Shown piece after piece: positions 45,677 to 47,357 of a DNA stretch of 64,000 nt (positions are counted from its first letter, which is position 1; the number at the start of each line of letters is the position of its first letter). The stretch covers positions 1 to 64,000 of the forward strand of contig JANQNU010000065.1 in assembly GCA_028279405.1 (NCBI GenBank), given 5' to 3'. Below the pieces are notes generated by a model. It searched no databases, had not been told where the DNA came from, and was given only the letters and a program-made list of their open reading frames with translations. The translations under genes and the position numbers were made by a program. This DNA comes from Phycisphaerae bacterium. GTDB taxonomy: Bacteria; Planctomycetota; Phycisphaerae; UBA1845; Fen-1342.

Positions 45677-45781
45677 TTGGTTCCGGTCGCCGTGGACTCC
45701 CGCGGCGTTTTCGTGCGGAGCGCTCAAACGCGCGGTGCGTCGGGTTGTCGGGCCGTCGCGCCGGCCGGGACATTGTTATTT

Positions 45782-45872
45782 GGAGAGGTGGCCGAGTGGC
45801 TGAAGGCAACGGTTTGCTAAACCGTCGTAGTGCGTCATAGTGCTACCGCGGGTTCGAATCCCGCCCTCTCCG
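45782..45872 (+). tRNA. tRNA-Ser(GCT)
   Basis: 91 nt with the long variable arm of a class II tRNA. Acceptor GGAGAGG (45782-45788) pairs with CCTCTCC (45865-45871); anticodon stem ACGGT/ACCGT encloses TTGCTAA (anticodon GCT, reading AGC/AGU). The T-arm GGGTTCGAATCCC is intact. CCA is not encoded. It lies 105 bp behind tRNA-Pro and directly before a tandem array built from its own 3' end. Confidence 0.95.
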
Positions 45873-45933
45873 TTAAGCGCTCCTCGCAGAGTGCTGTCTT
45901 GCAGAAAGTCATCTCCGCTATTCACTGAGTGGA

Positions 45934-46018
45934 GGGGTTCGAACACGCTCACGAGCGTCAGCGAGTGCGCGGGATCGACACCCGGCAGGGGGCCGCGCAG
46001 CGAATCCCGCCCTCTCCA
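45934..46018 (+). repeat. tRNA-Ser 3' fragment with T-loop insert, copy A
   Basis: The T-arm start GGGGTTCGAA (45934-45943) is followed by a 57-nt insert, then CGAATCCCGCCCTCTCC (46002-46018), which is identical to the tRNA-Ser 3' end. CGAA is present on both sides of the insert, like a 4-bp target duplication. The insert holds CAC-GA-GC-GTCA-GC-GA-GTG (45950-45967), a stem with paired GA steps. Upstream, CTCC...GGAG (about 45913-45935) could be a variable-arm remnant. No 5' half of a tRNA is present. Confidence 0.7.
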
Positions 46019-46033
46019 TTCACGTTATCTTGA

Positions 46034-46166
46034 TAGGGGGACCGTCGAATTCGTCGTGCGCCTCGTCTTTTTGAGGTGCAAGGGGTTCGAACCCGCCCAC
46101 GAGCGTCAGCGAGTGCGCGGAGGTCGACGCCCCTGGGCGCCGCGCAGCGAATCCCGCCCTCTCCGT
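46034..46166 (+). repeat. tRNA-Ser 3' fragment with T-loop insert, copy B
   Basis: Begins with a remnant of the anticodon-variable-arm region (ACCGTCG at about 46041, then GTGCGCCTC...GAGGTGCA as a hairpin), continues to AGGGGTTCGAA (46081), a 56-nt insert close to that of copy A, and ends with CGAATCCCGCCCTCTCCG (46149-46166). The paired-GA hairpin is at 46098-46115. The period from copy A is 148 bp. Confidence 0.7.
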
Positions 46167-46181
46167 TCACGTTATCTTGAT

Positions 46182-46302
46182 AGGGGGACCGTCGAATTCG
46201 TCATGCGCCTCGCGTCTTTTTGAGGTGCAAGGGATTCGAACGCGCTCACGAGCGTCAGCGCGTGCCGGGATCGACACCGGTAGGGGCCGCGCGACGCGTG
46301 AG
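46182..46302 (+). repeat. tRNA-Ser 3' fragment with T-loop insert, copy C (truncated)
   Basis: The same spacer as copy B (TTATCTTGATAGGGGGACCG appears in both) leads to GGGATTCGAA (46231) and an insert with hairpin at 46247-46264, but the copy stops after CCGCGCGACG and lacks the tRNA 3' tail. The truncation coincides with the 3' end of the DUF4386 gene. The period from copy B is 149 bp. Confidence 0.65.
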
Positions 46303-46306
46303 AAGG

Positions 46307-47029
46307 TCAAGCGATGCTGCCGGCATTTCGCTGTGATTCCGTCGCCGATCGAACTGCCTGAATCGGTCCGAACAGCAGCCATAACAATAAGAGCCCTTCG
46401 CCGGCCAATGCGGGAACGAACATCGCCAGCATGACGACCGATTCGTTCGCCAAGAAGAACTCGGGAGCCAACAGCGTACCCAGTCCGTGACCGACGTAGG
46501 CCAACCCGGCCAGTGCGACCAGCGCGCCGATCGCGGTCGGTAGCGGGCGGGTCCGCGCAATCAGCAGGCCTAGCAACAGGAGGTGCACGCCGAAGAAGAC
46601 CAGCGTCAGCGTGAACCCCAGGTGGTAGCGGGCAACCTCTTGCGCGACAAGCACGGACTGGAGCGCCGGGTCGTCGGCTGGGGCGGTGGCAAGCTGGACC
46701 GCGGCCGGCAGATGCAAGATCACCACGAATTGCGCGACGGTGTACGTGAGCCGAAACAACGTGCTGAGCGCGTTGAGCGCGGACGCTGCCGGTGCGATCA
46801 GGCGATAGAGCGCCCACGCCACGTACACGTCAGCGCCCGTCACGACGAGTAGCTCGGCCGTCGCGAGCCGTACCGTTCCGGCCTGCTCCCGAACGAAGCG
46901 TAGCAGTCCCTCAGGGTCGTCGGTGGCCGGCGCGGGACCCAGCAGGCCAAGGTTGGCATGCAGCGCCAGCGCGAAGATCACGGCATAACCGACCCCCGCC
47001 AGTCGCGCGAATTTCGTTTCCTCGGTCAT
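46307..47029 (-). CDS. DUF4386 family membrane protein
   Basis: 240 residues, about seven hydrophobic helices. Family features are the N-terminal KFARLAGVGYAVIFA, FRLTYTVAQF in the third helix, and LVFFGVHLLLLGLLIARTRPLPTAIG toward the end. Function of DUF4386 is unknown. ATG 47029 gives the usual family length; the reading to 47080 adds a charged non-conserved start. The gene lies between the truncated repeat copy C and the diverged copy D, which suggests insertion by recombination at the tRNA-Ser repeats. Confidence 0.75.
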   Translation of the reverse strand: MTEETKFARLAGVGYAVIFALALHANLGLLGPAPATDDPEGLLRFVREQAGTVRLATAELLVVTGADVYVAWALYRLIAPAASALNALSTLFRLTYTVAQFVVILHLPAAVQLATAPADDPALQSVLVAQEVARYHLGFTLTLVFFGVHLLLLGLLIARTRPLPTAIGALVALAGLAYVGHGLGTLLAPEFFLANESVVMLAMFVPALAGEGLLLLWLLFGPIQAVRSATESQRNAGSIA

Positions 47030-47193
47030 GACGATCGAACTCCGTTCCTTCGCACGCGATCGACCTGACCCTGCCGCCAAACATGGAGATCAAGCGGTTC
47101 GCCACCAACGATTCAGCAGCGGGATCATATCGGTGAACGCCTGAACGGGCAGGGCGCTTCGTGTCGGAACATGTCTGGCCAGATGCAGGCGGT

Positions 47194-47243
47194 GATCGTC
47201 GCAGCACCCGGTAGGGGGCCGCGCAACGATTCCTACCTTTCCG
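47194..47243 (+). repeat. Diverged repeat copy D next to another tRNA-like tail
   Basis: GATCGTCGCAGCACCCGG and TAGGGGGCCGCGCAACG match the 3' half of the copy A insert, and the following ATTCCTACCTTTCC has the form of a tRNA T-arm/acceptor 3' strand but from a different tRNA than tRNA-Ser. It has no upstream half. The rest of the 47030-47357 gap shows no gene. Confidence 0.5.
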
Positions 47244-47357
47244 GTCGAGTAGATCGCTTTGGGCGACTAGTGCCTGCCGAAGAACTCGGCGGTTCTCCGC
47301 GGGTCGTCGCCGAGATCAAAGATCACGGAGCAGACGGACCACCACCAGTGATCACTG

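Follow-up and report, generated by a model that had tools for sequence, protein, structure and literature searches.

The tRNA-Ser(GCT) gene in the window, by which we mean the whole 64,000-nucleotide stretch of Phycisphaerae DNA that was analysed, is directly followed on the same strand by three repeats, and these raise the question of what they are and how they came to stand behind a tRNA gene. The initial annotation saw in them tRNA 3' parts split by an insert, left either by a mobile element that targets the T-loop and was then duplicated in tandem, or by a processed RNA array. The spacing of 148-149 bp that it gave is confirmed from the sequence and by Tandem Repeats Finder (score 574). 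Its identical tail is also found, as CGAATCCCGCCCTCTCC occurs at 45855, 46001 and 46148, that is, at the 3' end of tRNA-Ser(GCT) and as the tails of units 1 and 2. The units are about 147 bp long, two of them complete and one without a tail, with one further remnant, and derived covariance models score the window units at 60-108 bits. The array exceeds chance by far. Its features are as follows.

45781-45873, + strand: tRNA-Ser(GCT), intact host gene (ARAGORN; Rfam RF00005, 61.2 bits)
45874-45931, + strand: linker of unit 1, with a 7-bp hairpin CTCCGCT/AGTGGAG near 45913-45934 (sequence, fold)
45932-45948, + strand: unit 1, reverse complement of the host T-arm, GAGGGGTTCGAACACGC (comparison with the reverse-complemented T-arm; start of the R3 model)
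45949-45967, + strand: unit 1, apical hairpin Pa, CAC-GA-GC[GTCA]GC-GA-GTG, with tandem G.A (covariation over 31 units)
45968-46000, + strand: unit 1, T-arm 5' half in degenerate form, GCGGGATCGAC, with the small hairpins P3/P4, CGC-GCA-GCG (alignment A6; RNAalifold for P4)
46001-46017, + strand: unit 1 tail, equal to the host T-loop/T-stem 3' half and acceptor 3' strand at 17/17 positions (sequence)
46018-46164, + strand: unit 2, with linker, core at 46080-46147 and tail at 46148-46164 (R2 model, 97 bits; R3 model, 60 bits)
Within the unit 2 linker, + strand: 8-bp hairpin TGCGCCTC/GAGGTGCA (sequence, fold)
46165-46302, + strand: unit 3, linker and core from 46229, truncated and without a tRNA tail (R2 model, 60.5 bits)
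47205-47245, + strand: degenerate remnant of the 3' end of a unit (29 nt at 90% identity with unit 1; E 0.002 over the whole genome)

The description of three units that repeat the tRNA 3' part fits units 1 and 2 but not unit 3, which ends abruptly near 46292-46302, before any tail. No intact tRNA is detected within the units by ARAGORN, in agreement with the earlier statement that they are not functional tRNAs. The span of 45782-46302 marks a real array but leaves out its relatives, namely the remnant at 47205-47245 and a single unit that follows tRNA-Ser(CGA) on a different contig of this genome. With the covariance model only 4 copies are found in this genome, all at two tRNA-Ser loci, and no further copies rise above noise there. 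A DUF4386 gene (46307-47080, minus strand) lies between the truncated unit 3 and the remnant, and may have been captured between units.

What does a unit consist of? From 5' to 3' it begins with the reverse complement of the T-arm and the hairpin Pa; next come the 5' half of the T-arm, the small hairpins P3/P4 (one or two of them), the 3' half of the T-arm and the acceptor 3' strand with the discriminator, followed by a linker. This order departs from the earlier reading in several ways. There is no variable arm in the units. The first arm, GGGGTTCGAAC, which was taken for the T-arm 5' half, is the T-arm reverse complement (that of GCGGGTTCGAATCCCGC is GCGGGATTCGAACCCGC), and the degenerate 5' half GCGGGATCGAC of unit 1 is found at about 45969-45979. 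The CGAA on both sides of the insert, read as a 4-bp target duplication, forms the inner part of an inverted repeat of 8 bp, GGGRTTCG/CGAATCCC. After the T-arm 5' half of the unit stands a C, at the position where the tRNA has an A. The two T-arm copies pair with each other in the stems P1 (GGGRUUCG/CGAAUCCC) and P2 (AACNCGC/GCGGGUU). In the relatives described below, UGAG/CGAA often replaces UUCG/CGAA in P1, which gives a tandem G.A motif.

The fold is borne out by covariation. In a MAFFT alignment of 31 cores, the covariation score of P1, P2, Pa and P4 is.228, against.088 after shuffling (reached in 0/500 shuffles), and sliding the pairing partner gives at most.048. Both sides change in 11 of the 23 pairs, and RNAalifold recovered P1, part of P2, Pa and P4 when no structure was supplied. 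As both strands of P1 and P2 derive from one T-arm, the covariation of these two stems could be due to copying and not to selection alone; Pa and P4, which are not derived from the T-arm, covary too. A lowest-energy first fold was superseded by this covariation-supported one. A conserved peptide in the core was considered and rejected, because the reading frame shifts with hairpin length.

Relatives were sought with successive covariance models. A first model, made from the four copies of this genome, led to a single divergent relative (L089), which comes from a different genus of the family, and with that copy added relatives were found in 33 of the 397 genomes of the class. The R3 model, built from 31 aligned cores (alignment A6), gave more than 100 matches in 50 of the 397 genomes, with up to nine per genome among the matches listed; 119 matches lie within 93 loci. 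Almost all relatives with an assignable host sit just 3' of a tRNA and on its strand. The nearest upstream tRNA on the same strand is most often a tRNA-Ser (CGA 22, GGA 21, GCT 14, TGA 12), followed by Arg (9), Cys (4), His (3), Pro (3), Glu (2, both doubtful because the unit tails differ from that tRNA), Thr (2), Gly (2), Gln (2) and Asp, Tyr, Ala and Met (1 each). Another 15 matches have no assignable host, and several of them lie at contig ends. The insert is thus not unique to this locus, since related units are found behind many tRNAs, and these relatives involve the T-arm as well; on both points the initial annotation is upheld.

Other searches were less productive. In a phylum sample, R3 pointed to seven genomes, all of the same class, and as only about a dozen candidates were scored per genome, the lack of matches elsewhere in the phylum is weak evidence of absence. 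A plain DNA search of 27 family genomes gave one chance match, inside a gene, and an exact pattern scan of 84,980 genomes gave four matches, none near a tRNA. There was no match in viral contigs, and a plasmid search with a class member as query returned nothing usable. The candidate loci L090-L094, L096, L099, L100, L137 and L138 were rejected as chance matches, REP-like or antisense to a tRNA.

The tRNA 3' part that a unit carries, from the T-loop to the discriminator, is that of the tRNA in front of it, and the unit also holds the antisense of that tRNA's T-arm. Over 77 units the twelve tail bases agree with the host tRNA at 92% and with other tRNAs at 60%, and for hosts other than tRNA-Ser the values are 92% and 47%. 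The antisense arm matches the complement of the host T-arm at 81%, compared with 70% for other tRNAs, and none of 2000 permutations reaches either the tail or the antisense-arm value. Odd T-loops are mirrored exactly or nearly by the antisense arm, as in GTGGGATTCGGACCCAC for Thr(CGT) and GCAGGGCTCGAACCTGC for Arg(TCT).

The earlier statement that no described bacterial element has such a layout is wrong, as the E. coli tyrT repeats and the Salmonella tRNA-Pro repeats follow the same plan, which also shows that the design extends beyond the class. Knowledge of the tyrT repeats goes back to the 1970s and that of their RNA product to 1991, while their function is unsettled. In E. coli K-12, the 178-bp tyrT/tyrV repeats carry RtT RNA (Rfam RF00391, rttR b4425) and tpr. 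Like the window units, they stand in tandem directly 3' of the tRNA and each ends in its 3' sequence. The K-12 unit starts with GAAGGATGAGAAGCTTC, where the complement of the tRNA-Tyr T-arm is GAAGGATTCGAACCTTC, and ends in TAATCCTTCCCCCACCACCA, the tRNA-Tyr 3' end. A change from GGATTCGAA to GGATGAGAA in the T-arm complement is present in E. coli and Salmonella RtT and common in class members, which show it as GGGATGAGAACNCGC and GGGATGAGAAC; the window's own units retain TTCG, without the GAG change. E. coli RtT furthermore shares with the class units the GAC after the T-arm 5' half, several GNA-capped hairpins, a repeated linker and a variable copy number. There are also differences. The insert between the T-arm halves is about 20 nt in the window and class units but about 65 nt in E. 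coli RtT, and the class units have the extra apical hairpin Pa, follow other host tRNAs, mostly Ser, and belong to a distant group. In Salmonella, two annotated RtT copies lie behind tRNA-Pro. They start with GAGGATGAGAACCTCC, which apart from the same change is complementary to the T-arm of this tRNA, end with the tRNA-Pro 3' end and repeat a terminator linker, as class units do, but differ from these in an encoded CCA, a longer insert and their place in the Gammaproteobacteria.

The Rfam RtT model, with which all three K-12 repeats match at 134-138 bits, gives no match in the window at the gathering score, none up to E 5 around the array and none in 15 related loci up to E 1. In the reverse direction, R3 was run on 15 kb of enterobacterial loci, and RtT units in the right orientation make up nearly all of its top matches, at low scores of 10-20 bits; an E. 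coli REP beside the tyrT repeats scores 18 bits with the same model, in keeping with a likeness between RtT and BIME noted in PMC2965389. The window repeats are RtT-type elements, a known kind of which the Rfam RtT model misses these members, and for annotation this means that the model overlooks them. In the portions of the RtT literature that we consulted, we found no description of the T-arm-complement design or of the tracking of the host tRNA.

Units come and go between closely related species. Within one genus, the interval between tRNA-Ser(CGA) and hisH holds 1.6 units in genome G144 and none in G150, G156 and G188, and the pattern of occupied and empty sites is reversed at the Ser(GGA)-esterase site; unfiltered R3 finds no match in the empty sites of the sister species. 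In E. coli, an RtT match is absent from 771 of 5426 genomes and the copy number varies, with an empty site in the comparison locus L252, and in Salmonella a varying RtT copy number is reported as a 175-bp VNTR (PMC2658671). The repeated segment starts within the T-loop in most loci, and its far end varies between the tail, the linker, the next core or the whole unit. In a tRNA-Cys array, two terminator linkers stand in opposite order between two species. Peculiar inserts are common to different tRNAs of one genome, namely His and Ser(TGA) in G337 and Ser(CGA) and Ser(TGA) in G349, which indicates that units spread. Mean unit similarity within a genome is.63, and units at the same tRNA in different genera reach.55 (p 7e-4, from pairs that are non-independent).

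How might such units move? As each holds a sense and an antisense T-arm, a folded single strand of the unit would rebuild a double-stranded T-arm, with the small hairpins bulging out at its T-loop. We tentatively propose, with a little less than even confidence, that the units are non-autonomous elements which recombine in the T-loop by means of such folded single strands and bring along spare tRNA 3' ends. The folded DNA strand would mimic the host T-arm and recombine in the T-loop, in a logic comparable to that of integron attC sites or REP hairpins, and a putative host or foreign recombinase might act on it in trans. In this way units could be gained, lost, multiplied and reordered. The host tRNA would remain intact after each exchange, because every complete unit comes with a spare 3' end for it, and often with a terminator as well. 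T-loop recombination also predicts products such as one found in Salmonella NZ_CP018654.1 (L253:1380-1530), where the 5' part of a tRNA-Tyr pseudogene, adjoining two intact tRNA-Tyr genes and several RtT units, is fused inside the T-loop to an RtT core. Of the earlier mobile-element idea the outline survives, given the many tRNAs, the presence and absence in sister species and the starts in the T-loop, and the target duplication does not. That no recombinase or transposase was identified in our analysis weighs against the proposal. Terminator-like linkers number 17 of 66, compared with 2 of 66 after shuffling, and being only about a quarter they count against this proposal, as does the possibility that ordinary homologous recombination between repeats of 17-70 bp gave the tandem copies and identical tails.

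An alternative, which we consider unlikely, is that the units are a structured non-coding RNA, co-transcribed with the tRNA, excised during tRNA processing and active as a small RNA, with the fold and the tRNA-like tail serving processing or stability. Besides the RtT layout and the covarying conserved fold, this is favoured by what two papers report. In PMC4986893, E. coli RtT is a stable RNA derived from tRNA processing (citing Bosl & Kersten 1991), much as in the second idea of the initial annotation, with a proposed role in the stringent response, and RtT-family RNAs near tRNA-Asn and tRNA-Lys genes give northern signals in Actinobacillus; in PMC7657543, the tandem GA motif of RtT RNA is an independent covariation finding. 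These RNA data also speak against a purely mobile role, and yet transcription and stability of the units, if they resemble E. coli RtT in this, would be compatible with recombination in the T-loop. The stems look less like RNA. They contain 15 G.U, 13 A.C and 46 G.A cells, whereas the acceptor stems of the host tRNAs contain 22 G.U and neither A.C nor G.A (Fisher 1.6e-4 for G.U against A.C), so that G.U is not preferred over A.C. GNA triloops cap 20 of 31 Pa and 23 of 31 P4 hairpins. Loops of the types C(GNA)G and C(GNNA)G are stable in DNA; the loops preferred in RNA are GNRA and UUCG, which are not the main loops here. Together, the mismatch spectrum and the loops suggest that folding of the DNA strand matters for the units, although the weak G.U preference could also stem from relaxed constraint, that is, decay of unconstrained copies. 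A terminator ahead of the unit in several linkers and the patchy occurrence among sister species count further against an RNA role.

Somewhat less probable still is a passive origin, in which template switching at the palindromic T-arm made an inverted duplication that replication slippage and homologous recombination then amplified and homogenised, with no dedicated mobility or function. The T-arm is indeed palindromic in itself, the tails are homogenised with the host, and the tandem repeats often have a truncated end. The Pa tip, P3, P4, the GAC after the T-arm half and the replacement of TCG by GAG are, however, conserved across hosts and phyla, which independent duplications would not produce, and the inserts common to different tRNAs of one genome indicate spread.

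tRNA-Ser(GCT) seems to be used by integrative elements too, as integrase-like ORFs adjoin it in the relatives L013, L018 and L106, and the tail equals the segment that such integration duplicates, but it is very improbable that phages or islands using the tRNA 3' end left the tails behind as duplicated attachment sites, and we reject this, because such scars would contain neither a host-matched antisense T-arm nor a conserved folded core nor a repeated linker, the core is conserved behind many tRNA types, and no integrase is found in the array or its flanks. Among the ORFs listed around the array none is an integrase, and a Pfam search of four neighbouring ORFs matched only DUF4386 and S1/P1 nuclease.

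Three other known kinds of element were compared with the array. REP/BIME palindromes, which go with RAYT transposases, have small hairpins of single-stranded DNA type like those of the units, but REPs are dispersed in hundreds of copies and are not tied to tRNA 3' ends; with 4 copies only, at two tRNA-Ser loci of its genome, the window unit is not a high-copy dispersed palindrome of this type. The integron attC site is an imperfect palindrome of which a single strand folds into a mimic of a recombination site with an asymmetric bulge, and integron arrays, like the window array, consist of units that share one junction. We use this as an analogy only: the boxes RYYYAAC (R'') and GTTRRRY (R') are absent, with alignment A6 reading TTCGAAC/TGAGAAC and GTTTGAC/GTTCGAC, and neither gene cassettes nor an integron integrase were found near the array. 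An intron in a tRNA was also considered and rejected, as no match to an intron family was found in the window array.

The window array belongs to a widespread and overlooked group of elements that adjoin tRNA genes. It leads to many relatives in a bacterial group far from E. coli, where they follow a dozen types of tRNA, and their fixed design, copying of the host and gain and loss between sister species are all open to experiment. They turn the puzzle of the tyrT repeats into a concrete question of mobility at the DNA level at tRNA genes against an RNA role, for which E. coli K-12 is at hand as a test system. More speculatively, and in our view improbably, the units might be tRNA 3'-end cassettes common to different phyla, each made of a spare 3' half, a linker and a folded T-arm as recombination site and shuffled by an enzyme in trans, in analogy to integrons. 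The E. coli tyrT repeats, read hitherto as an RNA gene, would then be the first described example.

Some smaller observations may be of use to others. Repeats of the REP-like sequence GAGCGTGAGCGA in L092 and L096 (G081, from another family of the order) carry the tandem-GA hairpin of the window units. In L109:656-775 (G162), a group II intron D1D4 match (72 bits) lies about 0.7 kb from a unit. In L105:9480-9670 (G002), a unit lies behind an orphan 3' end of a tRNA-Ser, around which no tRNA gene was detected; the unit has perhaps been parted from its tRNA by rearrangement. Finally, an open frame of 127 aa without a Pfam match spans the array in the window (45840-46223, + strand), and may be compared with the protamine-like tpr frame within the E. 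coli tyrT repeats.
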